Part shown: positions 969 to 17,166 of the stretch, in pieces
How positions within the stretch are numbered: position 1 is the stretch's first letter
How the letters are laid out: the number at the start of each line of letters is the position of its first letter
Assembly (NCBI RefSeq): GCF_900103175.1
Contig: NZ_FNLF01000002.1
Span: 4,478,136 to 4,542,135 of the forward strand
Length of the DNA stretch: 64,000 nt
Source: Tsukamurella pulmonis
Lineage (GTDB): Bacteria; Actinomycetota; Actinomycetes; Mycobacteriales; Mycobacteriaceae
Direction of reading: 5' to 3'
The notes under the pieces: generated by a model
Database searches by the model: none
Told to the model about the DNA's origin: nothing
Seen by the model: only the letters and a program-made list of their open reading frames with translations
Translations under genes and position numbers: made by a program

Positions 969-3068
969 TTAACGCGAAGTTGGCGGCTCGTCGGACGGCG
1001 GCCGCTCCCCCGCGGTGCCCCAGCGCGGGGCGCTCGCCGGCCGCACGGGCCGCCGGGCTGGGCCGTCGTTCCCCTGGTCCTGCGAGGGGCGCACCCAGCG
1101 GTTGGCCTGCTTGCGCTGCGCACCGCTGCCCCGGTCGTACGGGGGCGGCGGCAGCGGGCGGACCGGGCGCGACGGTGCGCGGGGCGGCACGGGCGGCGGG
1201 ACGTGTCCGGTCGGAACGGGAGCCGCCCCCGGCGCACCGGGTGCGGGTGCCTGGGCCGGCGATCCCGCCGGACGCGCGTGCCGGCCGGGCGGCTGGACAC
1301 CCGGGGACTGCGGCGGGAGGGGGGCCTGCGGCACGGCACCCGGTGCCAGCCGCGGGGGCGCGGGCACCTGCCGCGGCACCCGGGGCGCGGGCTGCGCCGG
1401 GGCGGACGCGGCGCTGGGCTGGGCCAGGACGTCGCAGTACCGCAGCTCCTCATCGGTCGGGTTGAGCAGCACGTCGAAGACGGGGCGGCGGCCGATCCGC
1501 ACGCGGACCGCGGTGGCGGCGACCTGCTCGACCACGATGTCGGCGTTGGCGCGCTCGGGGGCGCTACCGGGGGCGCGCAGGGTGAGCATGGTGCGCGCGG
1601 GCACGGAATCGACCGGGGCACCGTCGAAGACGGTGATGTCCGCAGGACGGCCGAGGGAACCGTCCGCGATGCGGAAGCGGGCCGGGTCGGCGAGGGTCGC
1701 CGCCAGCGTGCTCCACTGCGCCGGGCGGTCGGTGTGCACCACCACGGAGGCGCCCGCGCCGACGGAGCGCAGCAGCACCAGTTGCAGCGGGATCAGCTCG
1801 GTGGCGAACTCCGCGACCAGCGTCTCGGGGACGGGCGAACCGTCGAACAGGGGCAGCGCGACGGCGTCCGGACCGGAGACGCCCCAGACGGGACCGGCCG
1901 GGCCGACGGGGATCTCCACCGCACTCAGATCGCTCAACGGAGTCGAGGGCAGGTCGACGATGCTGGACCCGCCGCCCGGCAGGGTGCCGCGCAGCAGTTC
2001 CATCTGGCGCCCCGGGACGGGGACGAGCGCGTCGTCGAGGTTGTCGACGATCGGCACGGCGGTGTCGTACCGCACCAGGCCGCTGATCTCCACCGGCGCG
2101 TGGGCGTAGGCCTTGCGCAGGCGCAGCACCACCGAGGTGCTGTCGCTGTCGAGTCCCCACCACCGGTCCAGCTTCTCCGTGGAGGTCCGGACCGGGTCGA
2201 CGAGGTAGGTCGTGGCGAACTCCGCGCCGTGCTCGACGTTCTGCCAGTTCTCGGTGCCGCCCAGCGGATCCGCGCCGAAGGTCATCCGGGCGTCGAGCTG
2301 CGCGAGTTCCGCGGCGGGTAGCACCCGGGCGCGGATCAGGCGCTCGAGCAGGCGCTGCTCGAGCCGGCGGGTCGCGGCCATCAGTGCCTTCGGGCCCGCC
2401 GTGCGCGACGGTCCGCGCCGGACGATGCCCTCGAGGTTGCGGCGCGTGTTCACGCGCAGGACGAGCCACGTGGACCGCTCTGCCATCGCCGCGTAGAACC
2501 GGACGCCCTGCGAGTAGGAGGCGCGGTACGCGGGACCGGGCGGCACGCGCCGGCCTGCGGAGACGACGTCGATGTCCACGTCGAGCCCGTACTGGGTCAT
2601 CATCGTGGCCAGCAGGTCCAGGGGCACGGTCTCCGCGGCGAAGGCGCGCCCGTCGCGCAGCCGCGTCTCCGCCGGGTCGGCGGTCAGCTCGATCGCCGAG
2701 ACCAGCTCGAATCCGTCGCCCTGCCGCACGCCGCAGCCGTCCACGTCGATCACGCGACCGGGGATGCCGCCCGTGGCGCGCCGGCGGCGGCGCAGGTACC
2801 GCAGGCGGGCGCCGATCTTCTCGCTGAGCACCGTTCCGTGCACCGAGACGAAGGCGAGCAGGGCGCCGATCACGATCAGCGCGATCACCGCCCACAGCGG
2901 CCGGCTCCCGCCGGCGAGCGCGACGAGCGAGGCGGAGAGCACCGCCCAGATCAGGGCGCGCCGCAGCGACACCCGGATCCAGACGGGACGGCGCAGCCGC
3001 GCGATCTCGGGATGCGTCGGTGCCTCCACCGGCTCCGGCGATGCCTGCTCGATCAGGGTCTGCGTCAT
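969..3068 (-). CDS. eccE: EccE, ESX membrane-complex component with long proline-rich tail
   Basis: EccE is a peripheral subunit of the inner-membrane ESX core (EccB-C-D-E). The 699-residue protein starts at ATG 3068, inside the TGATG junction that shares one base with the mycP stop, so translation is probably coupled. Two hydrophobic helices lie at about residues 30-75, followed by basic RRRRR sequence and a mixed cytosolic/periplasmic domain typical of EccE. After about residue 565 the protein becomes a long Pro/Ala/Arg-rich tail with PPPP runs that ordinary EccE proteins (roughly 300-550 residues) lack. Its place after mycP at the end of the ESX operon supports the call. The tail may be an interaction region or simple lineage drift; the sequence does not say which. 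Confidence 0.85.
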   Translation of the reverse strand: MTQTLIEQASPEPVEAPTHPEIARLRRPVWIRVSLRRALIWAVLSASLVALAGGSRPLWAVIALIVIGALLAFVSVHGTVLSEKIGARLRYLRRRRRATGGIPGRVIDVDGCGVRQGDGFELVSAIELTADPAETRLRDGRAFAAETVPLDLLATMMTQYGLDVDIDVVSAGRRVPPGPAYRASYSQGVRFYAAMAERSTWLVLRVNTRRNLEGIVRRGPSRTAGPKALMAATRRLEQRLLERLIRARVLPAAELAQLDARMTFGADPLGGTENWQNVEHGAEFATTYLVDPVRTSTEKLDRWWGLDSDSTSVVLRLRKAYAHAPVEISGLVRYDTAVPIVDNLDDALVPVPGRQMELLRGTLPGGGSSIVDLPSTPLSDLSAVEIPVGPAGPVWGVSGPDAVALPLFDGSPVPETLVAEFATELIPLQLVLLRSVGAGASVVVHTDRPAQWSTLAATLADPARFRIADGSLGRPADITVFDGAPVDSVPARTMLTLRAPGSAPERANADIVVEQVAATAVRVRIGRRPVFDVLLNPTDEELRYCDVLAQPSAASAPAQPAPRVPRQVPAPPRLAPGAVPQAPLPPQSPGVQPPGRHARPAGSPAQAPAPGAPGAAPVPTGHVPPPVPPRAPSRPVRPLPPPPYDRGSGAQRKQANRWVRPSQDQGNDGPARRPVRPASAPRWGTAGERPPSDEPPTSR

Positions 3069-4489
3069 CACGCCCTCCGCTTCCGGCCGGGCCGCAGGAG
3101 CGCGACCGCGCCACCGATGGCGAGTAGCGCGACCGCTCCGGCGCCGGTCACGATCGCCGCCGTCCGCCGCGGCCGGGTGTCCGGCGCGGGCGGCGGCGGG
3201 GGCACGAGCAGCTTCTCGACCGACTCGGGGTCGATGGCGGTGTCGATGTCCGGCACCTTCGCGGTCAGTGCGGCGACCGGGTCGATGAGGCCCCGGCCGA
3301 CTTCGTTGTCGGTGCCGCGGCCGGGGGCGTGCGCCGTGGCGACCAGCCGCGCCGCCACCTCCGTCGCGGAGAGCTGCGGGTACCGCGAGCGCACGAGGGC
3401 GGCCGTGCCCGCCGCGTAGGCGGCCGCGAACTCGGGGCCGGCGAAGGGCACCAGGGTGCGCTCCGACGGTGCGCCGTTCACGACGCCGTCGCCGCCGCGC
3501 GAGCTCAGCGAGACGATGCCGGCGCCCGGTGCGGCCACGTCCATCCACGGGCCGTTCAGCGAGCCGGGCAACGGGGTGCCCTCCGCGGTCGTGGCGCCCA
3601 CCGAGAGCACCTGCCCGTCGAACCAGTTCGGGGTCGCGACGGTGCTCACCTGCCGCCAGCCGCGCGGATCGTCGGGCCGGCCGGGGTCGGGATCGGGGTT
3701 CGCCCGGCAGGTGCTGGCGCCGACGGTGCCGCCCTGGCGGTCCGTCGCGCCGGCGCCCACCACGACCAGGGAGTCCTTGGCGCGCAACGCGTACGCCACG
3801 GCCCCGCCGATCTCGCGCTGGCGGAACTGGTTGTCCGCGGCCATGCACACCGGCTCGGGCACGACGATCACCTTCGCGCCCCGGTTCGCGGCCCGCACGA
3901 TCGCGCGGGCGATGCTGCGGGCGTTGACCGCGGCGCGGCTCAGGTTGGGGTCCGCGTCCTCCGCGGGGTTGTTCTGCAGCGAGAACCCGGCCGAGTCGAC
4001 GCGGATCGACAGGATCCGGGCATCCGGCGCGACGCCGACGAAGCCGTCGCCCGCCACCGGCTGCGCGCCGACGATGCCGGCGACGAGAGTCCCCGTCGAA
4101 TCGCAGTCCAGCAGCCCGCGGTCGCCGGCCACCATGTTGTCGCCCGCACCGTCGAGGCCGCGCAGGCGCGCCTGGGGACGGACGCCGGTGCTGAGCACGG
4201 CGACGGTGACCCCGGCGCCCGTCGAGAAGTCGTGCGCCTCATCGATCCGCAGGGTGTTCGCGGGGGCCGGCGCGGCGGCGAGGTTCGAGTTGGGCAGCAC
4301 GGCGGGTTCCACGCAGCGCGGGTTGTTGTTGCGCAACGGGCGTTCCGGGCCGTCGGTGTCGGGCGGCGCGCCGCCGATGTCCGCGACGGGCGGCACGACC
4401 GCACCGGAGAGGGCCGGGGCCCAGCTGCCCGCCACGATGACGGAGACGGAGACCGCGGTGATCGCGGCCGCCCTCGGGAAACGGAGCAC
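3068..4489 (-). CDS. mycP: Mycosin (MycP) subtilase-fold ESX component lacking the catalytic triad
   Basis: MycP proteins are membrane-anchored subtilisin-like proteases that cap and stabilise the ESX complex on the periplasmic side. The start is GTG 4489, 14 bp after eccD with AGGGG upstream; it gives a signal peptide (residues 1-28), a subtilase domain, a Pro-rich linker and a C-terminal TM helix (about 445-466) ending in RKRRA. Length (473 residues) is normal, and cysteines at 59, 129, 215 and 261 match the mycosin disulfide pattern. However, the Asp motif reads VAVLSTGV (Ser100 for Asp), the His motif DCDSTGT (Thr132 for His), the Ser motif AGPEFAA (Glu353 for Ser), and the oxyanion Asn position is Ala248. 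It should be a pseudoprotease with a structural role only. The frame is open and the codon use looks normal, so this is not simple decay. Confidence 0.9.
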   Translation of the reverse strand: MLRFPRAAAITAVSVSVIVAGSWAPALSGAVVPPVADIGGAPPDTDGPERPLRNNNPRCVEPAVLPNSNLAAAPAPANTLRIDEAHDFSTGAGVTVAVLSTGVRPQARLRGLDGAGDNMVAGDRGLLDCDSTGTLVAGIVGAQPVAGDGFVGVAPDARILSIRVDSAGFSLQNNPAEDADPNLSRAAVNARSIARAIVRAANRGAKVIVVPEPVCMAADNQFRQREIGGAVAYALRAKDSLVVVGAGATDRQGGTVGASTCRANPDPDPGRPDDPRGWRQVSTVATPNWFDGQVLSVGATTAEGTPLPGSLNGPWMDVAAPGAGIVSLSSRGGDGVVNGAPSERTLVPFAGPEFAAAYAAGTAALVRSRYPQLSATEVAARLVATAHAPGRGTDNEVGRGLIDPVAALTAKVPDIDTAIDPESVEKLLVPPPPPAPDTRPRRTAAIVTGAGAVALLAIGGAVALLRPGRKRRA

Positions 4490-4503
4490 GGACCCCAGCC
4501 CCT

Positions 4504-6072
4504 CTACTTCAGGAACGACAGGTCGAGCTCGCGCATGAACGCGAACAGCCGGGTGGTCCACAGCGCGAGCAGGACCACGGCGAAGATCGCCAGTTTCTCG
4601 CCGGCCTCGATCCGCCCCAGCAGGCGCGCGGACAGCGGCCGGACGTGGCCGCCGCCGTCGGTCGAGACGCGGTCCGCGAGCAGCAGGCCGCCCGCGCCGA
4701 AGGCCACCAGCACCACGGCGCTGAGCACGATCACGACCAGCCTGCCGAGATCGGAGTCCAGGGCTCCCACGAGGATCACCGCGAGGCCCGCGGCGACGAG
4801 GAAGCCCGCCACGAAGAAGACGGTGGCGTGGACCCGGTCGTCGAGGGTGCGGCCGCGGAGAACACAGATCACCGAGGTCAGGGCGGCGATCGCCACCTCG
4901 CCCCAGAAGTAGTGGCTGTCCGGCACGATCACGGTGAGCGCCGAGACCACCAGGATCCCGGCGATCGCCACGTAGAAGCCGGTGAGCAGCTTGGCCGCGG
5001 TGCGGGCCTTGCGCTCGAGGCTCGTGTTCTCCTCGGAGCGCGCGAGCTCCGTGGTGCTCTCGTCGTCGAAGGTGTCCACGTGATACGCGGCGTCGAGCTC
5101 GGTGCGATCGATGTCCTCGCCGGGCGGCGGCAGCGGATCGGGCCGGACCCGGGCGAGCAGGAGCGACCAGCCCTGGGCCCAGTTCGCCAGCAGGAGACCG
5201 GCGATCACGCCGAGGGCGGGGACGGCGGGGCGGCCCAGCGGGGTGTACGCGAACAGGGCGCTCGCCACCACGGCCGCGGCGGCGGTGAGACCGAGGGCCG
5301 CCAGCACCGTCGCGCCGAGGCCGCTCGCGCGGCCCAGCACGACGACGCCGAAGAGCGCGAAGAGCGAGCCCGTCAGCACGTTCGCCGCGGTGAAGGCACC
5401 GTCGACGCCCCCGTCCGGGGGAATGAGGACGAAGCCCGCGGCGAACAGCACCGGGGCCGAGGCGATCTGCAGGGCGTACGCCACCTGCGGGGCGTGGTAC
5501 TGGCGGTCCGCGGAGACCGCCGCGAGCACCACTCCGATCGCGGCCAGCGCGGCCACGGGGAACCACCAGAGCACGCTGGAGTGGGCGAACCAGGCGACGA
5601 GCACGAGCGCGGCGAAGACCACCGCGCCGAGGACGAGGGCGAGCAGGCCCAGCGCGCGCGCCGTCGCCGATTCGAAGCGGCGGAAGCGCTGGCGGCAGAA
5701 CTCCTGGATCGCATCGGCGGTGCTCTCGATGAGCGGCCGGAAGGTCTGCGTCGAGAAGGTCTCGGACAGGATCAGTCGATCGCCGTCGAGCACGCCCGCA
5801 TCGGCGAGCGACTTGTCCCGGGCCAGCTGCGCGCCGCCCTCACGGGCGAAGGTCCAGGCACCGGTCGTCGAGAAGTCGTGATCGGGGAAGATCTGCTCCA
5901 GCCCCGGGATCACCGAGTCCATCACGACGGAGAGCCGGCGGCGCGCCAGCAGGCTCCGCTCGACCGAGTTCTCGCCCACCTCGACCAGGACGCGAACCTG
6001 CTCGGGTACGGCGGATCTCCCGGGGCCCGCGTTCTCGGTGGCGGCGGGCTCCGGGGTGATCGGGAAGACCAT
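4504..6072 (-). CDS. eccD: EccD, polytopic ESX membrane pore protein
   Basis: EccD is the most hydrophobic ESX core subunit; dimers of it line the membrane complex. Residues about 20-105 form the ubiquitin-like (YukD) cytosolic domain (QVRVLVEVGENSVERSLLA onward). The remainder holds about eleven TM helices between roughly 140 and 520, interrupted by an acidic cytosolic loop near 315-350. The 522-residue length is typical. The start ATG 6072 lies 6 bp after the espI-like stop, and the gene is followed by mycP after 14 bp, as in ESX-1 to ESX-3 loci. No defects are visible. Confidence 0.93.
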   Translation of the reverse strand: MVFPITPEPAATENAGPGRSAVPEQVRVLVEVGENSVERSLLARRRLSVVMDSVIPGLEQIFPDHDFSTTGAWTFAREGGAQLARDKSLADAGVLDGDRLILSETFSTQTFRPLIESTADAIQEFCRQRFRRFESATARALGLLALVLGAVVFAALVLVAWFAHSSVLWWFPVAALAAIGVVLAAVSADRQYHAPQVAYALQIASAPVLFAAGFVLIPPDGGVDGAFTAANVLTGSLFALFGVVVLGRASGLGATVLAALGLTAAAAVVASALFAYTPLGRPAVPALGVIAGLLLANWAQGWSLLLARVRPDPLPPPGEDIDRTELDAAYHVDTFDDESTTELARSEENTSLERKARTAAKLLTGFYVAIAGILVVSALTVIVPDSHYFWGEVAIAALTSVICVLRGRTLDDRVHATVFFVAGFLVAAGLAVILVGALDSDLGRLVVIVLSAVVLVAFGAGGLLLADRVSTDGGGHVRPLSARLLGRIEAGEKLAIFAVVLLALWTTRLFAFMRELDLSFLK

Positions 6073-6078
6073 CTGGCG

Positions 6079-7854
6079 TCAGCGTCCCTCTGTCGTGCGC
6101 ACCTGCTGCAGCTCGGCGAGCTTCTGGGCGGCCGGCGGCTCGTAGCCCGAGTTGAAGCCGTCCGCGAGGTCCGCCGCCAGCTCCTCGAAGGCGCGGACGG
6201 TGCGCTTGCGCAGCAGATCGATGTCGATCGGCTGGTCCGAGTCGAGGTGCGGGTCGTACGGGATCTCGTGCACGCGCAGCTTCTGCCCGGCGCGGAAGAG
6301 CTCGTCGAACTGCTCGACGGAGACGCTGCTGCGACGCTTGGTGTGGTTGATGACCACGATGGTGTTCGCGAGCAGGCCGTGCCAGCCGTGGTGACGCAGC
6401 CAGTCGATGGTCGCCGCCACCTTGCGCACGCCACGCGTGGTGGCCGAGGCGGGCAGGATCAGCGCGGACGAGATCTCCAGGACGCCGGTGCCCGTGGTGG
6501 TCTGCAAGCCGCGACCCGCATCGGCCAGCGCGAGGCTGTAGTGCGGACGGAAGATCGAGTACAGGTCCAGCACGTCGTCGTAATCGGCCACATCGCGGCC
6601 GTTGAACCGCCACGGCGAAGGCAGCACGTGCAGGTTGGTCGAGGTCACCGCGAGGTGCTTGTCGACCTGGTTGCGGTCCGAGAGATCGCTCTGCTGGATC
6701 AGCGTGCGCGCCGTGGAACCGCCCTGGTGCCACGCGGTCACCTGGTCCAGATCGCCACCGTCGGGATCGAGGTCGAGCGCGACCACGTTGTCGGCGCGGG
6801 TGCGCTCGAGGATCTGGCCGAGCACGCCCACGAGCAGGGTTCCGCCGGCGTTGTCGGCGAACACGCTGGTGACGTGGAACTTGTGCTTCGGGACGCGGAT
6901 GCGGTGCACGAGCTCGGCGTGCTCCTGGTCGTTCGCGCTGGGGCCGATGTCGAGGCCCATCTTGCGCAGCCAGGCGCGCCAGCCGGAGACGCGCACGGCG
7001 GCGTCCGAGAAGCGGATCTGCTGGTTGAAGGACGAGGACGCGGTCGACATCGGCGCAGAGACCGAGTCACCCATCGGGCGCATCGGGGCCTGCTGGTGCT
7101 GCGGCACCATCGGGGCGGGCGCGCCCTGCAGCGGCGCCTGGCCGAAGGGCTGCGGCGCGGACGGGCGGTGGAGCTGACCGGAGGCCTGCGCGGACTGGAA
7201 CTGGCCGGTCGGCGGGACGCCCTGGAACGCCTGCTGCCCCTGGCCGTTCTGCTGCTGGCCGTTCTGCGCCGCGGCGGGGGCGAAGCCGTTCTGGCCGCCC
7301 TGCCACTGCTGCTGCGGCTGCGGGACCGGCGCGGGGGCCGGGGCGGGCTTGGGCGCCGCCTGCTGCGGGGTCGACGGTGCCGCGGCCTGCGGGCCGTCGG
7401 TCGCCGGCGCGTCGGCCTTGGCGGGCGCATCCGACCCGGAGTCCGCCTCGGCCGCGTCGGCCTTCGGGGACGCCGCCGGCGCCTCGCTCGTGGGCGCTGC
7501 ATCGGCCTTCGCCGCGTCCGCCTTGACGGCCTCGGCCTTCGGGGCGTCCGGGGCGGCGTCGTCGACGACTGCGGGCTGCTCCGCCGTGGGGCGCTCGTCG
7601 GCGACAGGAACGACCGGGGTGGCGGGGGCGGTGGGCATCGCCGCGGATCCGTCGAGGTCGTCGACGTCGGGGAGCGCGGGCTCCTCCCACTCGCCGCTCA
7701 CGGGCTCGGACAGCGCGCCACCGGTGGGCGCGGACGGACGGACCACCGGCACGGCGGTATCGGTCGAGGGCAGGACGGGGGAAGCCGCATCGCTCTCACC
7801 GTGGCTATTTTGCGGCACGAAAGGCACCCGAACGTTCGTAGCTGCGTCGCTCAT
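6079..7854 (-). CDS. EspI-like MinD/ParA-family protein with degenerate P-loop
   Basis: EspI-type proteins pair a disordered Pro/Ala/Gln-rich N-terminus with a MinD/ParA-like ATPase domain and modulate ESX activity. Here residues 1-290 are Ala/Pro/Gln/Asp-rich, with repeated KADAA and QNGQQ stretches, and 300-591 is the MinD-like domain. The start ATG 7854 was preferred over an in-frame start 57 bp upstream because AGAGAGG precedes it. Where family members have KGGxGKT, this protein reads VFADNAGGTLL (331-341), so both the signature lysine and the P-loop lysine are missing. The downstream ALDLDPDGGDL strand is kept. ATP hydrolysis is therefore doubtful. The gene lies between espG and eccD, 6 bp from eccD. 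Placement and fold support EspI; the function of this variant is unknown. Confidence 0.8.
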   Translation of the reverse strand: MSDAATNVRVPFVPQNSHGESDAASPVLPSTDTAVPVVRPSAPTGGALSEPVSGEWEEPALPDVDDLDGSAAMPTAPATPVVPVADERPTAEQPAVVDDAAPDAPKAEAVKADAAKADAAPTSEAPAASPKADAAEADSGSDAPAKADAPATDGPQAAAPSTPQQAAPKPAPAPAPVPQPQQQWQGGQNGFAPAAAQNGQQQNGQGQQAFQGVPPTGQFQSAQASGQLHRPSAPQPFGQAPLQGAPAPMVPQHQQAPMRPMGDSVSAPMSTASSSFNQQIRFSDAAVRVSGWRAWLRKMGLDIGPSANDQEHAELVHRIRVPKHKFHVTSVFADNAGGTLLVGVLGQILERTRADNVVALDLDPDGGDLDQVTAWHQGGSTARTLIQQSDLSDRNQVDKHLAVTSTNLHVLPSPWRFNGRDVADYDDVLDLYSIFRPHYSLALADAGRGLQTTTGTGVLEISSALILPASATTRGVRKVAATIDWLRHHGWHGLLANTIVVINHTKRRSSVSVEQFDELFRAGQKLRVHEIPYDPHLDSDQPIDIDLLRKRTVRAFEELAADLADGFNSGYEPPAAQKLAELQQVRTTEGR

Positions 7855-7932
7855 GGACCGCACCTCTCTCGATGGAAGAATTGTTTGCAGATTAATACAC
7901 GCGCTGGTCACGAAGCCAGCGGGGGGCGGCTA

Positions 7933-8799
7933 TCAGTTTGCTGTGTCGAACCATCCGGTGCAACCCCCGCGCTCGACCAGATCCGCGATCCCCTCGGAGA
8001 AACGGCGCCGCGTCCCCGGGCTCAGCGTCACGTCGACCGCGCCCTGCGATCCGCGCTGGGTCGTGGACAGGACCCGGCCCGCGGCGGTGTCCATGACGCC
8101 CACCGCCCATCCGGCCTGGGTACGCACACCGGAATCCGCACGGTGGTAGACGATCTCGGCCCGTCGGCCGGTGTACCGCGCGGCATCGAGCAGGATGTCG
8201 ACGGTCTGCTGCGAGAGGTCGTGCTCGCGCAGCCGGCTCCGGATCTCCCGTTCTGCCCGCGCCCCGCCCACCTGCGGGTCGAAGCTCGCGACGATCTCCG
8301 CCAGTTCGTTCGCGTCGAGGGTGAGGGACTCGAGTTCCGCCGGCGCCTGCGCACCGAGGACCCGCCAGAGCGGTTCGACGACCGTCGCCTCGAAGTCCTC
8401 GCGGTCCGTGCGGAACCCCTGCACGGTGAACTGATCGTCGTTGCGGAAGGCGACCACCACGGTCTCGTCGCGCCGCACCACCGCGCCGCGGAGCACGGTG
8501 TCACCGTCGAACACCCGGATCGCGAGCTCCGCCGCAGGATCCTGGAGCACGCCGAGCCACGCCTTCACCTGCGGATCGACGGACCCCGTGCCGTCCACCA
8601 GGCCCGCATCCACGAGACCGGGCAGCACCGCCAGGTCGACCACCAGCTGATCGTCGGGCCGGTACACGTTGGGATGCACCGCGAGCACGATCGGCGCCAG
8701 CTCCATGACGTCGGCCAGCCGCATGAGCAGCAGCAGCTCATCGATGTCCGCGGCGAAAGCGGACAGCTTCGCCACGGGGCCGTCGGTCGTCACGGACAC
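7933..8799 (-). CDS. espG: EspG, cytosolic chaperone for PE/PPE substrates
   Basis: EspG proteins bind the tip of PPE partners of PE-PPE dimers and keep them soluble for ESX export. This 288-residue protein has the usual length and the mixed alpha/beta EspG pattern: an N-terminal LAxxxGL-like hydrophobic segment, a central DDQFTVQGFRT strand region, and a C-terminal GVMDTAAGRV / GVDVTLSPGTRRRFSEGIADLVE segment typical of the family. The start is ATG 8799. It sits 45 bp after the second esx gene and 78 bp before the espI-like gene, the position espG3 takes in ESX-3. The PE/PPE pair in the same operon supplies its likely client. Confidence 0.88.
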   Translation of the reverse strand: MSVTTDGPVAKLSAFAADIDELLLLMRLADVMELAPIVLAVHPNVYRPDDQLVVDLAVLPGLVDAGLVDGTGSVDPQVKAWLGVLQDPAAELAIRVFDGDTVLRGAVVRRDETVVVAFRNDDQFTVQGFRTDREDFEATVVEPLWRVLGAQAPAELESLTLDANELAEIVASFDPQVGGARAEREIRSRLREHDLSQQTVDILLDAARYTGRRAEIVYHRADSGVRTQAGWAVGVMDTAAGRVLSTTQRGSQGAVDVTLSPGTRRRFSEGIADLVERGGCTGWFDTAN

Positions 8800-8844
8800 G
8801 GCACTCCCTTCCGGTCTCCGCCCACGGGCGTGGGCGTGGTGCTG

Positions 8845-9150
8845 CTAGATGGCGTAGAAGTTCATGGCCTGCACCTGGCCGGCCTTGTGGATCGCCGCAG
8901 CGGTCTGGACGTTCACGCCGGTCTTCTGCAGGGCCATGATGAGGTTCTCGTTCGCCTTCAGGCACACCTCGTGCACGCGCTGGTAGCTCTCCTGGTCGAT
9001 ACCGACCCAGTTGCCGACGTTGAGGTTCGCGACGTTGTTGCTCGTCAGCTCGGCGATGAGGCCCTCGGCGACCGCGGCCGCCTTGCCGAAGCTGACCGAG
9101 GTGACGTCGTAGCTGGAATCACTGACCCGGATGTTGGTCGGAGAGGTCAT
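8845..9150 (-). CDS. WXG100-family Esx protein (ESAT-6-like) with W-V-G motif
   Basis: This is a 101-residue WXG100 protein, the class of small helical hairpins exported as heterodimers by ESX systems. The turn motif reads NWVGIDQ at residues 47-53, with helices on both sides. No C-terminal YxxxD/E export signal is visible; the end is MNFYAI. It lies 30 bp downstream of the other esx gene, so the two probably form one heterodimer. The start ATG 9150 has GAAGGAG about 6 nt upstream. I do not assign EsxA or EsxB identity because the pair is divergent. Secretion is inferred from family and position. Confidence 0.87.
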   Translation of the reverse strand: MTSPTNIRVSDSSYDVTSVSFGKAAAVAEGLIAELTSNNVANLNVGNWVGIDQESYQRVHEVCLKANENLIMALQKTGVNVQTAAAIHKAGQVQAMNFYAI

Positions 9151-9180
9151 GGTGGAACTCCTTCGAGTGAGTGGGGTCGC

Positions 9181-9486
9181 CTAGACGGCGTAGCCGGTGA
9201 ACAGGCCGCCGGCGTCGCCGTCGGTGTTGATGATGTGCGTGCCGTTGCGGCCGAGGGCCTCGGCCACGGCCTCGAGCTTCTGCTGCTCGGCGTTGCACAC
9301 GGCGATGAGCTCCTCCATGTGCGCGGTCGCGCGGTTGGCCGTGTCACCCGAGTTCTCGGCGCGGTACGCCTCGGCGGTGGCACGCACGAACTTGATGTTC
9401 GCGAGGGTGCTCGCAGCCACGTCGGTGGTCTTGGCGGTACCGGCGGCGTGGGCGACGGTGTTCATGTCGTAGATCTGCGGGGGCAT
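9181..9486 (-). CDS. Esx-family (WXG100-like) protein lacking the tryptophan of WXG
   Basis: This 101-residue helical protein is the upstream partner of the esx pair. Its opening MPPQIYDMN resembles EsxH-type proteins (MSQIMYNYP). Where EsxH has W-Q-G-D-T, this protein reads N-S-G-D-T (residues 45-49), so the motif tryptophan is replaced while Gly-Asp-Thr remains. The C-terminus (GDAGGLFTGYAV) has no clear YxxxD/E signal. GGAG precedes the ATG start at 9486. Position between PPE and the second esx gene, length and predicted two-helix layout support an Esx identity. Partner binding and export remain inference. Confidence 0.8.
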   Translation of the reverse strand: MPPQIYDMNTVAHAAGTAKTTDVAASTLANIKFVRATAEAYRAENSGDTANRATAHMEELIAVCNAEQQKLEAVAEALGRNGTHIINTDGDAGGLFTGYAV

Positions 9487-9539
9487 GAGAGCTCCTTCTG
9501 TTCAGTGGTGGTCTGTGCGGGGCATCGGCGGGGTGCGGA

Positions 9540-10907
9540 TCAGCGTCCCTCCCCACTCGACGGAACGTCGACGGGGACGGATTCGTACTCGGGCGCCGCA
9601 TCCTGGTAGATCGGCATGGCCGCGGTATCGGGCACGACGACGCGCTCGCGCTGCTTGCCCTGCGACCGCGCCACCGGGGCACTCGTGCCCGTCGGGAGGA
9701 TCGGCCGCAGCGGCTCGGCCGCGACGCGCGGGACCGGCGGCGGAGGCGGCGCAACGGTCAGACCGTCGGTGGACCAGTTCGACGGTGCCACGACCTGCGC
9801 CTGCGCGATCGCCCCCGTCTCCACCCGCAGCGCCGACGCCGAGCGGATCGCCGGCTCGCCGCGGGACATCCGTTCCAGGTTGGGGGAACCGGGGCGCGCA
9901 CCGAAGTAGCCGACGCTGCTGGTCCGGTTCTCGGCGCTCACGTTCGCGAGCAACGCGCTCATGGGCTGGTAGACCACGCCACCGGCGGTCACCCCCGCGG
10001 TCGGCACCTGCCCGACGGCACCGCCGCCGACGTTCATCGCGGCGCCCGCGGCGGCGCTCACGCCGCCGGCCGCGCCCGCGCCGACCACGCCGCCGAGCTG
10101 CTGCACCAGGCTGGCGCCGAGCTGCTGGCCCATCACCGGGCGCGGGCCGTCGTTCGACTTCGATTCGGCGGTGGCGATGTTCGACGCCACCTGCTCGAGA
10201 CGCTGCGCGTTGACGATCGCGGTCTGCGCGAGCTTGGTCGCGGACAGCACGCCACCGGCCGTGCGCATCGCGAGCATGCTGGCGGTCGCCTGCGCGCCCT
10301 GCGCGGCCAGCGTCATCTTCGTGACCACCGCGTCGCCCACGGACGCCGCGCCAGCGGCCGCGGCCGGGATCGGCACGCCCGCGGGCGTCGCGATCGGCTT
10401 CGGCGGGATGAACGGCTCGAAGGTCATGTTGGCGACGGAGTTCGCGAGGTAGACCGCCATCATCGAGGCGTTCTGCGCCCACATCGCCGCGTACTGCGCC
10501 TCGTTGGCGGCGATCGCCGCGGTGTTCACGCCCAGGAAGTTGGTGGCGTTGAGCACGGCGTTGGTGAGGTGGTTGAGCGCGATCTCGGGCAGCTGCGCCA
10601 TGCCCGCCAGCGCGGCGGAGTAGTCGGCGGCCTGCTTGGTGTGCCGGGTGGAGGCCAGCAGCGCCTGCGCGCGCACGGCCTCGTTGTGCGCGAGGTACAT
10701 GGCCACGTTGCGGGTCATGAGGGCGGTCTCGGGCGCCTGCCACGACGCGGCGAGACGCGGCAGCAGGGACTGCAGGAAGACCGAGCGGGCGCTCACGGAC
10801 GCCGCCACCGATGCCCACGCCGCAGCGGCGGCGGTGGCGGGTGCCGGCCCGGCGCCCGACATCAGGCGCCCCACGTTGACCTCGGGCGGCAGGGCTGGGA
10901 AAGTCAC
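9540..10907 (-). CDS. PPE family protein, ESX substrate
   Basis: The N-terminus FPALPPEVNVGRLMSGAG is the hallmark of PPE proteins, and residues about 125-155 (NFLGVNTAAIAANEAQY then MWAQNA) match the helical core that pairs with PE and docks EspG. The PPE core spans roughly 1-180. The rest is Ala/Gly-rich, then Pro-rich, a variable C-terminal region without MPTR or SVP repeats. The protein has 455 residues. It begins 15 bp after the PE stop, the classic PE-PPE cistron, and is followed by the esx pair. It should be exported with PE as a heterodimer after EspG delivery; its extracellular role is unknown. Confidence 0.93.
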   Translation of the reverse strand: MTFPALPPEVNVGRLMSGAGPAPATAAAAAWASVAASVSARSVFLQSLLPRLAASWQAPETALMTRNVAMYLAHNEAVRAQALLASTRHTKQAADYSAALAGMAQLPEIALNHLTNAVLNATNFLGVNTAAIAANEAQYAAMWAQNASMMAVYLANSVANMTFEPFIPPKPIATPAGVPIPAAAAGAASVGDAVVTKMTLAAQGAQATASMLAMRTAGGVLSATKLAQTAIVNAQRLEQVASNIATAESKSNDGPRPVMGQQLGASLVQQLGGVVGAGAAGGVSAAAGAAMNVGGGAVGQVPTAGVTAGGVVYQPMSALLANVSAENRTSSVGYFGARPGSPNLERMSRGEPAIRSASALRVETGAIAQAQVVAPSNWSTDGLTVAPPPPPVPRVAAEPLRPILPTGTSAPVARSQGKQRERVVVPDTAAMPIYQDAAPEYESVPVDVPSSGEGR

Positions 10908-10922
10908 GGCGTCACACTCGGG

Positions 10923-11210
10923 TCAGAACTGGACGGCGTTGTCGGCCATGATGTACGTCGCCGCGGCCGCCGAGAGGCTGACCCCGTACTGCGCCACCTC
11001 GGCGTGGTCCAGGACGGAGGCGGCCAGGAAGTTGGCGGCGTGGGCGGCCGAACTGGTCGAGACCAGCAGCGAGACGTCATCCGCACCTGCGGGCACGACG
11101 GCACCGATGGCGCCGGCGGCGCCACCGATCACGCCCGAGGTGGTGGCCACGTTGGCCATGACCTCGTTGGTTCCTGCCAAGAGCTGAATAGGCGCCACGT
11201 TCAGGCTCAC
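10923..11210 (-). CDS. PE family protein with YxxxD export motif
   Basis: This 95-residue helical protein occupies the PE slot immediately before PPE. It starts at GTG 11210, with AGGGGA about 8 nt upstream. The canonical Pro-Glu near residue 8 is not kept (MSLNVAPIQLL), but size, Ala-rich helices and pairing with PPE fit. The C-terminus contains YIMAD (Tyr86 to Asp90), the YxxxD/E general type VII secretion signal. It is the clearest export signal among the small ESX substrates here, so PE probably leads the PE-PPE dimer to EccC. It is the first gene behind the promoter described at 11,244-11,272. Confidence 0.87.
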   Translation of the reverse strand: MSLNVAPIQLLAGTNEVMANVATTSGVIGGAAGAIGAVVPAGADDVSLLVSTSSAAHAANFLAASVLDHAEVAQYGVSLSAAAATYIMADNAVQF

Positions 11211-11224
11211 CCGCTGTCCCCTTT

Positions 11225-11272
11225 ACTTGATTTTCAAGTTGCAACTAAAACAGAACCGTCAAATTTCGTCAA
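11225..11272 (-). promoter_or_regulatory. Predicted internal ESX promoter and inverted repeat upstream of PE
   Basis: On the minus strand TTGACG (11272-11267) is followed after exactly 17 nt by TTTAGT (11249-11244), a good housekeeping-type promoter about 35 nt from the PE start. Just downstream is the inverted repeat ACTTGA-N3-TCAAGT (11225-11239), and GTTGCAAC (11238-11245) is itself palindromic. The 137-bp gap after eccC is AT-richer than its surroundings. I infer separate expression of the substrate genes. The repeat could be an operator or a leader hairpin. Confidence 0.55.
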
Positions 11273-11347
11273 TCCCGGGTTGCCCGAAATTAATGATCCC
11301 ACATTACCGGTGGGTACGGCCCACCTCGGACGGAAACCGTGTCTCCC

Positions 11348-14300
11348 TCATCCCCACACGTCCTCGTCCGACTCGGCCTCGTCCCGGCGCACGCCGTTCC
11401 AGGCGACCTGCACGACGTCCGACGGGGCGCCGCGGCCCGGATGGAACCGGCCGCGGCCGGGGATGCCGAACCGCTGGCCGCGCTCGCCGCCGATGTTGAC
11501 GTTGAACTTGTCCGCCGACAGCGCCAACGCCATGGCGCTGTTGGTGTCGAGGAACTGGATCATCGGGTCGGAGCTCGCCTTGTAGAGGTACTCGGTGTCG
11601 TTGAGCACCACGATCACGTGGAAGCCGCGAATGACGCCGTCGCTCATCAGTTTCACGGTCTGCGTGATCGGGTTGGTGCGGTCACCGCGCGCCACGACGG
11701 CGTCGTAGTCATCGATGATGAGGAAGATCTCGGGGCCCGTCCACCAGTCGCGGCGGGCGAGCGCGGCGCTGTCCGCACCGTCGGGCACGCGGCGGTACGT
11801 CACCTTCGCCGGGTCGGTCTCCCCCTCGCCCATCCACTCGACGAGCTTGTCCTGCCACCGGCGCAGGAAGTCGTGCAGGTCCGAGCCGTGCACCCCGAGG
11901 TTCTTCGGGTTCGGCGCGAAGGCGCCGCGGTGCACGCGTTTGGGGTCGAGCAGGGCGATGGCGCCGTCGTCGATCGTCGGGTACCGCCGGCTGATCGCCT
12001 CGATGAGGGTGTGCACCAGGGCCGAACGCCCCGAACCGCTCTCGCCCACCACGTACATGTGGGCCTCTCGGCCGAAGTCCGCGACGGCGGGTCCGCCGTC
12101 GATCTCGCGGACGCCGAAGGGCAGCCGGACCCGCTCGCGCGCACCGGCCTGCGCCGGCAGCACCGAGAAGAGATCGTCCTGCAGGATCACCTCGGGCAGT
12201 GCCAGCAGCTTCGGAGCCTCGGCGCCGGAGGTGTTGGCCCGGCGGATCCGCTCGACCACCTCTTCGATGCCCGCGCTGAGCGTCTCCGGCGAGCTGTCGC
12301 CGTCGGCGCGCGGCAGCGCGACGAGGCCGAGGAGCTCGCGATCGGTGGAGATGACGTGACCGGGCTTGTCGGGAACCGCCTTGTTGCGCTGCGAGTTCAC
12401 GACCGACATGTCGTAGCTCGCCGAGGAGATCCTGCCCTCGACGATCGTGTGCATATGGCTCGAGAGGCCGCGCAGCACCGTGTTGCGCGCCGTGGTGATC
12501 ACGAAGTGGACGCCGTAGTTCAGGGCGCCCGAGGCGAGCGCCTCCAGCACCGGCACCTTGTCCTCGAACACGCCGCCCTCGGTGACCGCGGCGTCGAAGC
12601 CGTCGATCACGATGAAGGCGTCGCCGAAGGCGTCCTCGCCGCTGATCTCGGCGCCGGGATCGCTGCGCAGCCTGCGGTACTCGGCCATCGAGTTGACGCG
12701 GTACTTGCGGAAGAGCTTGACGCGCTGCTCGATCAGGTCGGACATCTGGGAGATGATCCGGTTGATCGCGTCCTCCTCGGAGCGCGTCGCGATCCGGGAG
12801 ACGTGCGGCAGGTCCTCGAGCCGCATCCAGCCGCCGCCGGTGTAGTCGACGATGAAGAACTGGACCTGTTCCGGCGAGTGGGTCAGGGCCAGCGAGGTCA
12901 CCAGCGTCATCGCGGCGGTGGTCTTGCCCCGCTGCGGGCCGCCGTAGATCAGCACGTTGCCCTGGCCGCCCGACAGGTCCAGCTCCCACACGGGCTGCTG
13001 ATGCTTGGCCGGGTCGTCGAAGACGCCGAACGGCGCCTTCAGCGTGGCCGGGACGGTCACCATCGGCGCGACCCACTCGTCCGCACTGAGCGACGGTGCC
13101 AGGATGTCGAGCGTGGTGGAGGTGAGCTCGGGCAACCAGGGCTTGTAGGCCGGCCGCGCCGGCGCCTTGGTGAGCAGCTCCTTGACCACCGTGAAGACCG
13201 TGGGCGCGGCGAGGATCTCCTCCTCCGTGCGCACCACCTCGTCGTCCTCGACGATCTCGACCTCGAGGTCCGGGATGTCCACCCGGCGCGCGCTGAAACC
13301 GCGCGAGGAGAGGTCGTCCGCGGTGGGCTGCACCACCTCGCGCTTGACGGGCTCGGGAGCGACCTCGGGGGCGAAGTAGGGCTTGCCGGTGAAACCCGCG
13401 TAGAACCGGATCAGATCGTCCTCGTGGAGCGTCTTGATCAGGCCGTTGCCCGGCTTGCCGGGCAGGTTCTTGGCGTCGGGAACGCCGATCACCGCGCGGG
13501 AGTCGCCGGCGGTGCCGGTGCGAAGTGCGATGTGGTAGTGGATGTTCGACTCGAGGCCGCGCGAACGCGCCATCTCCGCGTTCTGCGAGGCGAGCAGCAG
13601 GTGCACCCCCACGGACCGGCCGACGCGGCCGATCTGGCTGAAGATGTTCACGAATTCCGGCTTGGCCTCGAGCAGCTCGGTGTACTCGTCGATCAGGACG
13701 AGCAGCGCCGGCATCGGTTCCAGGTCCGGGCAGTGCCCGGACTCGCGGGCCTTCTCGTACTCCGTGAGGCCGATGATGTTGAACGACGGGTACTTCGCGG
13801 CCGCGCTGTCGAAGAGCTGCTGGCGCCGCTTGAGCTCGCCGGTGATGACCTCCATCATCCGGTCGACCATGCTCTCGGACTTCTCGAGGTTGGTGACCAC
13901 CGCGGCGACGTGCGGGATGTCCTCCATGCCCTGGTAGGTCGCGCCGCCCTTGAAGTCCACCAACAACAGGTTGAGCATCGACGGGGAGTGGAACAGGCAC
14001 GCGTCGAGCACCAGGCAGCGCAGGAACTCGGACTTACCTGATCCCGACGTACCGATCATCTCGCCGTGCGGGCCCGTACCGCCCTGGCTGGCCTCACGCA
14101 TGTTGAGGAAGATGCGCGTGCCGTCGGGGGCGAAGCCGATCGGGAAGTTGAGGCGGTGCGGATCGTCGAACCGCTTGATCCGCTGCCAGAAGGCGAGGAC
14201 GTCGATGGCGCCGGGGTCCTCCACCTGCACCAGGCTCGCCCAGTCCCGCCCGGTGTCCTGGCGCTCCTTCGACAGCAGCGAGGCGGTCGTCTCGAGTTCC

Positions 14301-15568
14301 CACCGCGCCAGCTTGCGGGCGGTGGTGTGCGCATCGATGAGGTCGAGGTAGTCGGCGCGCGCGATCTCCTTGGGCGGCTCCAGCGGCAGGTCCGAGTCCC
14401 AGCGGGTCACGATGCCCGTGCGGTCCACGTCCAGGAGCACGGCGTGCGGGAAGGAGTCGATGACGCCCTCGGGCGGCGACATGAGGATCCAGGTGACGTC
14501 CGCCAGCGAGGCGATCGCCTGGTCCGTCATCCGGGCGCGCTCAGCGGATTCCACGATCACGACGGTGTGCCGGGTCCGCCCGGTCACCTCGGTCTCGGTG
14601 GTGAACGGCCGCGAGTAGTCGACGACGCGGTCGGCCTCGGCGGTCGGCTGTTCGTCGCTGCCCGCCAGTTCCTCGAGGAACTCGGTCCAGTTGCCGTAGA
14701 TCATGCGGCGCGAGCCCAGGGCGTCGATCAGGGTCGGATGCTGCACCTGCGGAAGCCACTTCAGGTACTCCCAGCGGCCGCCGTCCGGGGTGTCGGCGAC
14801 CACGGCGAACCGCAGCCTGTCCGGGCCGTGCGTGACCGCGAGGTGGCTCAGCATCGCGCGCACCATGCCCGCGGACCGCTCCGGATCTCCGCCCACGCCG
14901 AGCACCGGGAGATTGCGCAGCGTCAGTGCGAGCGGCATGTCGGCGATCGTCGAGTGGGTGTGCAGGAACTTCACGGTCTCGGTCCACTGCACCGGGTCGA
15001 GGAACTCCCCGTCGGGCGCCTCGGGCGTGAGCAGCTTGGCCTTCGGCACGATGCGGCCGCGGCCGTACCGCGCCGCGGTGAACCTGCTCTTGCGCTCCGC
15101 GTCGCCGCCGTTCACCTCCCACATCCGTTCCGTACCGACGAGAGAGGCGATCACCGCCGGATCCGGGTAGGCGTGCGCGAGGGCGTCGAAGTAGTTGCGG
15201 CCGCGCGCGAGCGCCTTCTCGCGGGAGGTGCCGATCGACCGGCTCGCCTGCTTGCGGTCGTGCAGCAGCTGCGCCTTCGACTTGTTGCCGCTGCCGCCGG
15301 GACCGCCGCCCATGTAGGCGAACATGCCGAACAGCAGCATCATCGGCATGAGCAGCATCACCGGATTGAAGCCGCGGTTGAGGCGGATCATCATGAACAG
15401 CATGCCGAGCACGGCGACCACCATGACCACGGGCATCATCACCGTGCGCCACTTGCCCGGAGGGTCGACCTCGTCGATGGTGTCCGGGGTGCGGACCTCC
15501 ACCTCCTTCTTGACGACCCGGGGCTCCTTCTTCGGGTGGAGCGGGGGCTCGAAGACCTGCCGACTCAC
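11348..15568 (-). CDS. eccC: EccC, FtsK/SpoIIIE-type motor ATPase of ESX
   Basis: EccC recognises substrates and powers export. The 1,406-residue protein starts at GTG 15568, sharing one base with the eccB stop (TAGTG), so translation is coupled. Two TM helices (about 43-62 and 69-87) are followed by a DUF-like stalk and three FtsK-type ATPase domains. Domain 1 has GTSGSGKS (506-513) with Walker B LLLVDFKGG. Domain 2 has GGPQRGKTT (876-884) with FFIVDYTGG. Domain 3 has GESGSGRS (1175-1182), an Arg in place of the Walker A Lys, so it may bind nucleotide weakly; it usually serves as a substrate-binding site. Unlike ESX-1, where EccCa and EccCb are split, this is one polypeptide. Confidence 0.96.
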   Translation of the reverse strand: MSRQVFEPPLHPKKEPRVVKKEVEVRTPDTIDEVDPPGKWRTVMMPVVMVVAVLGMLFMMIRLNRGFNPVMLLMPMMLLFGMFAYMGGGPGGSGNKSKAQLLHDRKQASRSIGTSREKALARGRNYFDALAHAYPDPAVIASLVGTERMWEVNGGDAERKSRFTAARYGRGRIVPKAKLLTPEAPDGEFLDPVQWTETVKFLHTHSTIADMPLALTLRNLPVLGVGGDPERSAGMVRAMLSHLAVTHGPDRLRFAVVADTPDGGRWEYLKWLPQVQHPTLIDALGSRRMIYGNWTEFLEELAGSDEQPTAEADRVVDYSRPFTTETEVTGRTRHTVVIVESAERARMTDQAIASLADVTWILMSPPEGVIDSFPHAVLLDVDRTGIVTRWDSDLPLEPPKEIARADYLDLIDAHTTARKLARWELETTASLLSKERQDTGRDWASLVQVEDPGAIDVLAFWQRIKRFDDPHRLNFPIGFAPDGTRIFLNMREASQGGTGPHGEMIGTSGSGKSEFLRCLVLDACLFHSPSMLNLLLVDFKGGATYQGMEDIPHVAAVVTNLEKSESMVDRMMEVITGELKRRQQLFDSAAAKYPSFNIIGLTEYEKARESGHCPDLEPMPALLVLIDEYTELLEAKPEFVNIFSQIGRVGRSVGVHLLLASQNAEMARSRGLESNIHYHIALRTGTAGDSRAVIGVPDAKNLPGKPGNGLIKTLHEDDLIRFYAGFTGKPYFAPEVAPEPVKREVVQPTADDLSSRGFSARRVDIPDLEVEIVEDDEVVRTEEEILAAPTVFTVVKELLTKAPARPAYKPWLPELTSTTLDILAPSLSADEWVAPMVTVPATLKAPFGVFDDPAKHQQPVWELDLSGGQGNVLIYGGPQRGKTTAAMTLVTSLALTHSPEQVQFFIVDYTGGGWMRLEDLPHVSRIATRSEEDAINRIISQMSDLIEQRVKLFRKYRVNSMAEYRRLRSDPGAEISGEDAFGDAFIVIDGFDAAVTEGGVFEDKVPVLEALASGALNYGVHFVITTARNTVLRGLSSHMHTIVEGRISSASYDMSVVNSQRNKAVPDKPGHVISTDRELLGLVALPRADGDSSPETLSAGIEEVVERIRRANTSGAEAPKLLALPEVILQDDLFSVLPAQAGARERVRLPFGVREIDGGPAVADFGREAHMYVVGESGSGRSALVHTLIEAISRRYPTIDDGAIALLDPKRVHRGAFAPNPKNLGVHGSDLHDFLRRWQDKLVEWMGEGETDPAKVTYRRVPDGADSAALARRDWWTGPEIFLIIDDYDAVVARGDRTNPITQTVKLMSDGVIRGFHVIVVLNDTEYLYKASSDPMIQFLDTNSAMALALSADKFNVNIGGERGQRFGIPGRGRFHPGRGAPSDVVQVAWNGVRRDEAESDEDVWG

Positions 15569-17166
15569 TACTTCCCCCTCGGGTCGAACTTCGCGACGAC
15601 GGGGTCCTGCGCGCCACCGTCGTGCTTGATGGATGCACCGGCCTGCGACAACGTGGGCCCCTGCGCGAACAGGCTGATCATCGTCCACGGCGCGGGCACC
15701 GGGTTGCTCAGGCCGAGCGCCTTGGCCGAGGCCCCCTGCTCCGTCGAGCCCTGATCGTCGATGCCGTACCGGATCCCGGTGTCGGCGATCCAGAACTCGC
15801 CGCTGTGCTCGCGCGAGTCCGGCGCCGAGCCGGTGGCGTAGACGTACCGGCCGCTGTTGGCCGGGAGGTAGACGTCGTCGGCGATGGTGCCGGCCGAGTC
15901 CGGCGCGCCGATGAGCGAGATCCGGGCGGCGTTCTGCTCCGCGGTGAGCGGCAGGGTGCCGGCCACGAGCACGCGTTGGTCGGCCGTGGGCTCGTCCCCG
16001 TCGTGCGACCAGGCCAGGCAGGTCACGGGATCGCTCGTCGGATCCTCGATGCGCACCTTGCCCTCCGGGAAATGGTCGACGGCGATCCGCCCACCGACCT
16101 TGGGCCACTGGTTCGCCTTCGCCGCCTCGGTCTCGACCACGCCGCTCTTGACCGGCGAGACGGTCTGCAGGATCGACGCCGCCGTCTGCGTGATCTGCTG
16201 GATGCCGTCGGCCGCGACCACGTAGTAGGTCCAGCCGCCGTCGACCGTGGGGACGCGCAGAGTGGTGCCGACGAGCAGCTTCTCCGTGTTCGGGAAGCGC
16301 ACGGGCTTACCGAGATCCGTGATCTGCGGGACGTCGACCGGCTCGCGCGCGGCGAGCGCGTTGAACAGGCCCGAGGACATCGGGACGACGCGCTGATCGA
16401 TGCTGATCCCCAGCGCCTCGCGGATCGCGGAGTTGCCCAGGTCCAGGCGGGCCCGCGCCACGACCCCGTCGTCGGAGTAGACGAGCCAGGTCTGGTTGTC
16501 GAAGGCGACGACGCGGGCGCGATCGCCCGTCAGTTCGTCGGTGCCGGCGGCGGGCGAGAGGCCGCCGCCGATGACGGTGACCTTGACCGCGGAGGTCGCG
16601 GTCGTGGGCAGGCCGGTGCCGGGATCGAGCGGTACGGCCGATCCGGTGGCCGTCGTATCGCACACGGCCCACTGCGAGAGTGTGCTCTGCGAGTTGCGGA
16701 TGACCGTGGGGGCGTACGGGATGCCGACCATGGGCCCGCGGGGCAGCTTCTCGATCTCGCCGGACTTGGCCTGGACCGGCTTGGCCGGCGAGCCCACGAT
16801 GAGCTGTCCGGAGACCACGTTGGGGATCGGGTTCAGCGTGTCACCCACCCGAACGTACAGGCCGCCCGTCTGGGCGTCCTGGATGATCTCCCCGTCGCCC
16901 ACCTTGCCCGCGGGGAAGATGACCGCGCCGATCACGGAGCCCAGCGCCACGACGAGGCCCACCGCGAGCGCCATGTAGAGCGGCGACCCCTGGTACTTCT
17001 TGACGTCGTCGATCCAGCGCGTGTCCCGCCGCACCAGCGCCTCTTCGTTGCGCCGCTGCAGGTACGCCTCGCCCGACTTCTGGTACTTCGACGTGAGCCG
17101 GAAGCCGCGGACCCGTTCCTGCAGGCCCGACTTCGGGTTCGACGGGTCGGAGTTGATCTCAGCCAT
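15568..17166 (-). CDS. eccB: EccB, periplasmic ESX core component
   Basis: EccB has one TM helix and a large periplasmic domain that dimerises on top of the ESX core. Here a basic cytosolic N-terminus (about 1-62) precedes a TM segment near 63-87 and ~440 periplasmic residues. The family N-terminal pattern GFRLTSKYQKSGEAYLQRR is present, and a WAVCDT cysteine plus a TCLAW cysteine can form the conserved disulfide. The length is 532 residues (ordinary is 480-540). ATG 17166 overlaps the end of eccA by 8 bp and the stop is fused with the eccC start, so eccA-B-C form a tightly coupled block. Confidence 0.94.
   Translation of the reverse strand: MAEINSDPSNPKSGLQERVRGFRLTSKYQKSGEAYLQRRNEEALVRRDTRWIDDVKKYQGSPLYMALAVGLVVALGSVIGAVIFPAGKVGDGEIIQDAQTGGLYVRVGDTLNPIPNVVSGQLIVGSPAKPVQAKSGEIEKLPRGPMVGIPYAPTVIRNSQSTLSQWAVCDTTATGSAVPLDPGTGLPTTATSAVKVTVIGGGLSPAAGTDELTGDRARVVAFDNQTWLVYSDDGVVARARLDLGNSAIREALGISIDQRVVPMSSGLFNALAAREPVDVPQITDLGKPVRFPNTEKLLVGTTLRVPTVDGGWTYYVVAADGIQQITQTAASILQTVSPVKSGVVETEAAKANQWPKVGGRIAVDHFPEGKVRIEDPTSDPVTCLAWSHDGDEPTADQRVLVAGTLPLTAEQNAARISLIGAPDSAGTIADDVYLPANSGRYVYATGSAPDSREHSGEFWIADTGIRYGIDDQGSTEQGASAKALGLSNPVPAPWTMISLFAQGPTLSQAGASIKHDGGAQDPVVAKFDPRGK

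Follow-up and report, generated by a model that had tools for sequence, protein, structure and literature searches.

A mycosin with a replaced catalytic triad, conserved across Tsukamurella, and its proposed structural role in type VII secretion

The mycosin of the window has lost its catalytic residues

What does a mycosin still do once every catalytic residue has been replaced? The question is raised by mycP (3068 to 4489, minus strand), part of a full ESX (type VII secretion) locus of Tsukamurella pulmonis, within a stretch of 64,000 nucleotides (the window) taken from a genome of 4.78 Mb (labeled G000). The gene reads from 4489 down to 3068 and encodes, from a GTG start, 473 amino acids with no internal stop. 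Its product passes the TIGR03921 mycosin model (308.7 bits, with an NCBI cut-off of 278.75) and matches the Pfam subtilase domain PF00082 over residues 91 to 400. Alignment by phmmer to the solved structure of MycP1 (4kb5) gives 318 bits over nearly the whole length, with the N-terminal extension aligning to 4kb5 from residue 31.

The catalytic Asp, His, and Ser of this fold are S100, T132, and E353 in the window protein, and the oxyanion Asn is A248. From MycP1 to the window mycosin, the motif DTGV becomes STGV, DCDAHG becomes DCDSTG, AAGNT becomes AGAT, and GTSF becomes GPEF, all gap free within the motifs against 4kb5. A triad at shifted positions is ruled out by these motifs and by the same reading in a 109-row and a 145-row alignment. 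Cysteines 59, 129, 215, and 261 correspond to Cys in 85, 85, 85, and 84, respectively, of 85 mycosins with an intact triad, and hydrophobic 19-residue segments starting at 1, at 7 to 9, and at 443 to 450 are consistent with a signal peptide and a C-terminal transmembrane (TM) anchor. By its subtilase domain, N-terminal extension, conserved cysteines, TM anchor, and setting in an ESX locus with eccB, eccC, and eccD, the protein is a mycosin; without the Asp-His-Ser triad and the oxyanion Asn, it falls outside the active subtilisin-like proteases, which we take to be class S8 of MEROPS. The initial annotation, made from the window alone, had read the four substitutions at these residue numbers and had held that signal peptide, cysteines, TM anchor, and frame were kept; both readings are borne out, and alignment with MycP1 and with mycosins of related genera reveals no shifted triad.

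The altered mycosin is conserved and constrained across Tsukamurella

An orthologue with at least 72% identity is present in 13 of 16 Tsukamurella genomes, that of the window counted. All 13 carry the S/T/E replacement and are free of internal stops, whereas at position 248 there are 12 with Ala and one (L014) with Ser. The substitutions are not due to chance or sequencing error, because the orthologues that share them lie in the genomes of separate species. Ten of the 13 carriers were matched, through 1 kb of identical sequence, to named records: T. sputi, T. spumae, T. conjunctivitidis, T. asaccharolytica, T. sp. M9C, T. ocularis, T. pseudospumae, T. sp. 1534, T. sp. TY48, and T. tyrosinosolvens. 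Their records (L030 to L038 and L128) all read S/T/E, with Ser at position 248 in L036. The database name misleads in the case of T. tyrosinosolvens, whose copy carries the annotation "serine protease mycosin".

The genomic setting is conserved as well. mycP lies between eccD and eccE in the nine loci of this type that were mapped (eight genomes), and 12 of the 13 carriers have a closely matching eccB (at least 79%), genome G004 being the exception. Three genomes have no copy of the altered mycosin. In G009 (83% complete) no closely matching eccB was found either, and in G011 (890 contigs) neither any mycosin nor a closely matching eccB was found; an assembly gap is possible in both. The third, G010, has a mycosin with an intact triad (L015, identical to L060) in a different ESX, whose eccC and eccE match at 27% and 28%; a reversal of the altered copy was rejected on the grounds of this location.

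Selection on the gene was gauged by pairwise ratios of nonsynonymous to synonymous substitution rates (dN/dS), calculated by the Nei-Gojobori method (NG86). This is a simple method, and distant pairs carry many synonymous changes, so the ratios serve for comparison of the altered mycosin with its intact-triad paralogue, for which the whole-gene medians are 0.174 (77 of 78 pairs with dS of <1) and 0.157 (84 of 91 pairs), respectively. For single regions (pairs with dS of <1.5), the subtilase domain gives 0.139 in the altered mycosin versus 0.165 in the paralogue. Within the altered mycosin, the N-terminal extension (0.08) and the linker (0.179) are lower than the signal peptide (0.52) and the TM segment with the tail (0.44). 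The altered mycosin is thus under purifying selection, like its paralogue, and relaxation in the subtilase domain is not seen. The view of the initial annotation that this is a cleanly retained pseudoprotease is supported by the absence of a shifted triad and of relaxed selection.

Among the positions of the window protein, 64 are at least 95% conserved in the 85 Asp-His-Ser mycosins, three of which are necessarily the triad, given how the set was defined. All 13 altered proteins keep 55 of the remaining 61, so the changes fall mainly on the catalytic machinery. The six that differ are the oxyanion Asn at 248 (13 of 13), 227 (Leu to Ile, 13), 316 (13), 115 (12), 319 (5), and 150 (3).

A second, active-type mycosin, for which the initial annotation had proposed a search, does occur in the genome of the window. 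It belongs to an L002-type mycosin with an intact Asp-His-Asn-Ser set that is present in 14 of the 16 Tsukamurella genomes, and it is 42% identical to the altered copy. In T. ocularis (G003, locus L035; nine contigs, completeness of 100), the altered mycosin is the sole match both by protein search and by the mycosin model, a search for EccB gives a single match and no second EccB, and the type of EccC that all 15 other genomes have, at 710 to 775 bits, is not found. The second ESX cluster was thus not found in this species; an assembly gap is possible, although it would need to take out the entire cluster. Another EccC is present in T. ocularis, on a contig that has no mycosin match. This further EccC (526 to 536 bits) occurs in five Tsukamurella genomes (G003:C1:1216658, G008:C22:236212, G012:C22:44284, G013:C233:145888, and G015:C3:136700), and in G003, G008, G012, and G013 its contig has no mycosin match.

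Triad loss recurs in other mycosins

Of the first 20 relatives outside the genus, 18 have an intact triad. A wider set of 109 mycosins, comprising 29 from Tsukamurella and 80 that were hand-picked, mostly best match first among the matches listed, and therefore not a random sample, contains 85 with Asp-His-Ser and 24 that lack at least one triad residue. The latter are 13 from Tsukamurella, two from genus g8, and nine from genus g30. The g8 pair has Gly-Val-Ala in place of the triad and Asp at the oxyanion position, and the nine g30 proteins have Ser replaced by Gly or Ala, two of them with His changed too. A further 36 loci were read, a biased set made up of the 30 best genomes for a triad-changed g30 mycosin and six g8 loci, in which several genes already covered recur; 16 of these are triad changed, including one g30 protein that also lacks the Asp. 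The mycosin of Mycolicibacter nonchromogenicus DSM 44164 reads D/H/D/G. For four g30 proteins (two with the triad and two without), the best match among solved mycosins is 4kg7, which we take to be MycP3; the g8 proteins join the MycP3-like clade by trees only. Read from sequence, triad loss is not unique to the window gene: MycP3-like mycosins of g30 and g8 show it again, as does the mycosin of Mycolicibacter nonchromogenicus.

Trees were built under LG+G4 without a mixture model and with the catalytic columns excluded. The 109-row tree needs five changes of triad state, four of them forced by well-supported branches. A 64-row tree, whose rows were hand-picked and are rich in triad-changed proteins, needs nine, of which six are forced (seven to nine in bootstrap trees). 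These counts do not separate loss from regain, and the long branches of Tsukamurella and the Nocardia-like mycosins meet in the 64-row tree, so their sister relation is unsure.

Loss of EspB, the substrate of MycP1, was rejected as the cause of triad loss. The domain EspB_PE (PF18625) matches in nine of 151 genomes (four over the cut-off), from three of 31 genera (g11, g30, and g31), with no match in Tsukamurella. The 28 genera without it include g23, presumably Nocardia, in which all mycosins read keep the triad; absence of EspB_PE therefore explains nothing by itself.

Triad loss in mycosins is thus real, conserved, and recurrent, and the window protein is a natural pseudoprotease of a known family. 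Its recurrence outside Tsukamurella is new here, and a literature search with little coverage of subscription journals found no report of naturally inactive mycosins.

Several loci add detail to these patterns. Among the g8 loci L059/L174, L107/L173, and L175 to L178 (genomes G022 and G051) are a mycosin of the MycP3-like clade with Gly-Val-Ala and, in G051, another with Ser replaced by Gly; each of the two genomes also has one with an intact triad. Replacement of Ser by Gly or Ala, in most cases accompanied by a change of the oxyanion Asn to Asp, is seen in L039 and in the g30 loci L057, L084, L088, L091, L092, L098 to L100, L102, L144 to L151, L156, L158, and L163. In the Nocardia-like mycosins L051, L054, L068, and L071, the triad is intact and the oxyanion Asn is replaced by Asp or Gly.

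A structural role is the likely reason for retention

The available parts of published accounts describe all five mycosins of Mycobacterium tuberculosis with an Asp-His-Ser triad (PMC5156307) and report that MycP1 and MycP5 are required for secretion and for a stable complex (PMC5082899). Catalytic Ser-to-Ala forms of both restore secretion, a bulky residue that blocks the groove is also tolerated, and MycP1 mutants secrete even more; the ESX-1 complex, lost without MycP1, is regained with an active-site mutant (PMC5082899, as far as accessible). MycP5 forms a trimer that caps the EccB5 chamber and stabilizes the complex, with its active sites facing the chamber lumen (PMC8131196, in the portion available).

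By analogy with these mutants of MycP1 and MycP5, the job retained by the window mycosin is most likely structural. We consider it likely that it is a pseudoprotease whose secreted, membrane-anchored subtilase fold would be kept as a cap that holds together the EccB portion of the ESX membrane complex, the cutting chemistry having been discarded before the 13 carrier lineages of Tsukamurella diverged. Substrates of this ESX would then be secreted without cleavage by the mycosin. The prediction of the initial annotation, an ESX that does not process its substrates, remains a prediction, since other proteases could act on them.

Comparison with known systems places the protein close to MycP1 of ESX-1, with which it shares family, N-terminal extension, cysteines, and near whole-length alignment. 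In the accessible accounts, MycP1 has Asp-His-Ser and cleaves EspB (PMC5082899, PMC5156307), whereas the window mycosin has the triad and the oxyanion Asn replaced. The Ser-to-Ala laboratory mutants of MycP1 and MycP5, as described in those parts, resemble it in combining a mycosin devoid of catalysis with a working ESX, but they are engineered and differ at one residue, whereas this one is natural, differs at four, and occurs in 13 species genomes. Another pseudoprotease, CspC of Clostridioides difficile, is also a subtilase. According to the part of the report available, CspC is likewise kept for another job, the sensing of germinants in spores, and unlike the window mycosin is not part of a secretion system (PMC6636752). 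The cluster itself is probably the one listed in 2016 as "ancestral ESX-1" of T. paurometabola, beside an ESX-4EVOL cluster, in the accessible text of Newton-Foot et al. (PMC4791881), which is silent on the mycosin triad.

Several observations weigh against a structural role. Trp523 of MycP5, which is buried against EccB5, corresponds to Ala410 in the window mycosin, so the interface is not identical; Ala also occupies this position in 13 of the 14 intact-triad Tsukamurella paralogues, which makes the difference indecisive for a scaffold. An AlphaFold2 model of the window mycosin, from 11 alignment rows, is of no use for judging the fold, with a predicted local distance difference test score (pLDDT) of 38. 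In reconstituted ESX-5, deletion of mycP5 is reported to leave the main membrane complex without major change, although the table columns for EsxN and PPE18, read as secretion, are marked affected (PMC10597459, available part). Deletion of mycP3 in Mycobacterium smegmatis little altered growth and iron level (PMC6389172, available part), which means that a visible trait does not in every case depend on a mycosin, and the need for the mycosin scaffold may vary between systems. Finally, in G004 (L140, G004:C1:322000-337000), eccA, eccB, and the first ~218 residues of eccC have no match and the downstream mycP is intact; the ESX complex is probably not built there. The same locus holds an open reading frame (ORF) at L140:8218-9531, which we take to resemble an IS256-type transposase.

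Of the alternatives to a structural role, the one that survives best, although unlikely, is that the active-site groove has turned into a binding site that holds substrate or peptide uncut, serving the secretion chamber as receptor, filter, or chaperone. Consistent with this, S100, T132, and E353 are invariant in the 13 orthologues, as are 14 of 19 residues at 346 to 364 and 12 of 14 at 126 to 139, and the active sites of MycP5 face the lumen. However, only 6 of 13 residues at 240 to 252 are invariant, and with 198 of 333 invariant across the whole domain, the pocket is only moderately richer. Moreover, the full loss of the triad in g8 left different residues (Gly, Val, and Ala), and, in the published excerpts cited above, a bulky groove-blocking residue in MycP1 or MycP5 left secretion going.

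Slightly less probable again is cutting in trans by the L002-type mycosin of the second ESX cluster, which would make the triad-less copy the inactive partner of a mixed system. The presence of an intact-triad mycosin of this type in 14 of 16 genomes would allow it, but T. ocularis has neither that mycosin nor a second EccB nor the 710- to 775-bit EccC, and the two mycosins are only 42% identical. That the protein is still an enzyme whose chemistry is carried out by S100, T132, and E353 or by other residues is very improbable: the three new residues are all polar and invariant in the 13 orthologues, but the protein has neither the usual base nor the usual nucleophile, Ala or Ser stands in place of the oxyanion Asn, and the parallel cases elsewhere have Gly, Val, and Ala or Gly at the Ser position. 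Sedolisin-type triads, which retain Ser, also count against it. Decay of mycP, to which the locus of G004, incomplete upstream of the gene, might point, has the least to recommend it and is rejected for the genus on the 13 stop-free orthologues and a dN/dS near that of the intact-triad paralogue (0.174 versus 0.157).

A structural role would carry weight because the earlier case for dispensable cutting rests, in the accessible sources, on engineered MycP1 and MycP5 mutants, whereas the 13 species genomes and the parallel changes in other genera suggest long-term natural tolerance of an inactive mycosin. Since nature seems to accept such proteins over long times, the structural role can be studied alone. 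The changes in MycP3-like mycosins touch ESX-3, a system that published work ties to iron, and bear on the idea of using mycosin active sites as targets.

A second enzyme motif is missing from the same locus

The protein at the espI position (6079 to 7911, minus strand) is MinD-type and has lost its Walker A motif. The P-loop site reads AD(N/S)AGGTLLVG, or a near variant, in each of the 12 distinct Tsukamurella loci read (of 13, G005 not being among them), namely, that of the window and L030 to L038, L062 to L067, and L128, with duplicates merged. By tblastn, three Nocardia-like homologues retain a P-loop as GGVGRTT and one from g30 as GGVGKTA. The loss is not confined to the locus with the altered mycosin, because a standard P-loop is likewise missing from the homologue that G010 has in its different ESX. 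Judged by their motifs, two presumed enzymes of one ESX, the mycosin and EspI, are without the residues expected of them.

A broader proposition, tentative and somewhat short of probable, is that mycosin proteolysis is optional and has been switched off repeatedly, the essential role being structural. The Tsukamurella ESX would have gone furthest, with two presumed enzymatic brakes, the mycosin triad and the EspI P-loop, missing from every locus of this type in which both were read, and with no intact-triad mycosin found in T. ocularis.

Organization of the ESX locus

The claim that the mycosin is embedded in an otherwise full ESX operon holds, as eccA to eccE were all identified. The locus spans 969 to 19093 on the minus strand, and its genes are read in the order eccA, eccB, eccC, PE, PPE, two esx-size genes, espG, espI-like, eccD, mycP, and eccE. 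The gene eccA (17159 to 19093) matches PF21545 and PF00004, and eccB (15568 to 17166) matches PF05108. The FtsK/SpoIIIE-type ATPase gene eccC (11348 to 15568) matches TIGR03924 and TIGR03925 within an ORF at 11348 to 16108, its start being set to correspond to that of the annotated L128 copy.

The PE protein (10923 to 11210; PF00934) has a Y-x-x-x-D motif (YIMAD) close to its C-terminal end, which we take to be a secretion signal, and is followed by the PPE protein (9540 to 10907; PF00823). Of the two esx-size genes, both without a family match, one (9181 to 9486) was assigned by position and size and the other (8845 to 9150) also by a W-V-G motif, which presumably marks it as WXG100-like. The chaperone gene espG (7933 to 8799) matches PF14011. 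The espI-like gene has no family match and was recognized by tblastn homology to Nocardia-like and g30 genes; its true start is possibly at 7854, as the annotated L128 copy suggests. The genes flanking mycP are eccD (4504 to 6072; TIGR03920 and PF19053) and eccE (969 to 3068; TIGR03923 and PF11203 within an ORF at 969 to 3848), and the sequence places the ATG of eccE over the stop codon of mycP (ATGA).

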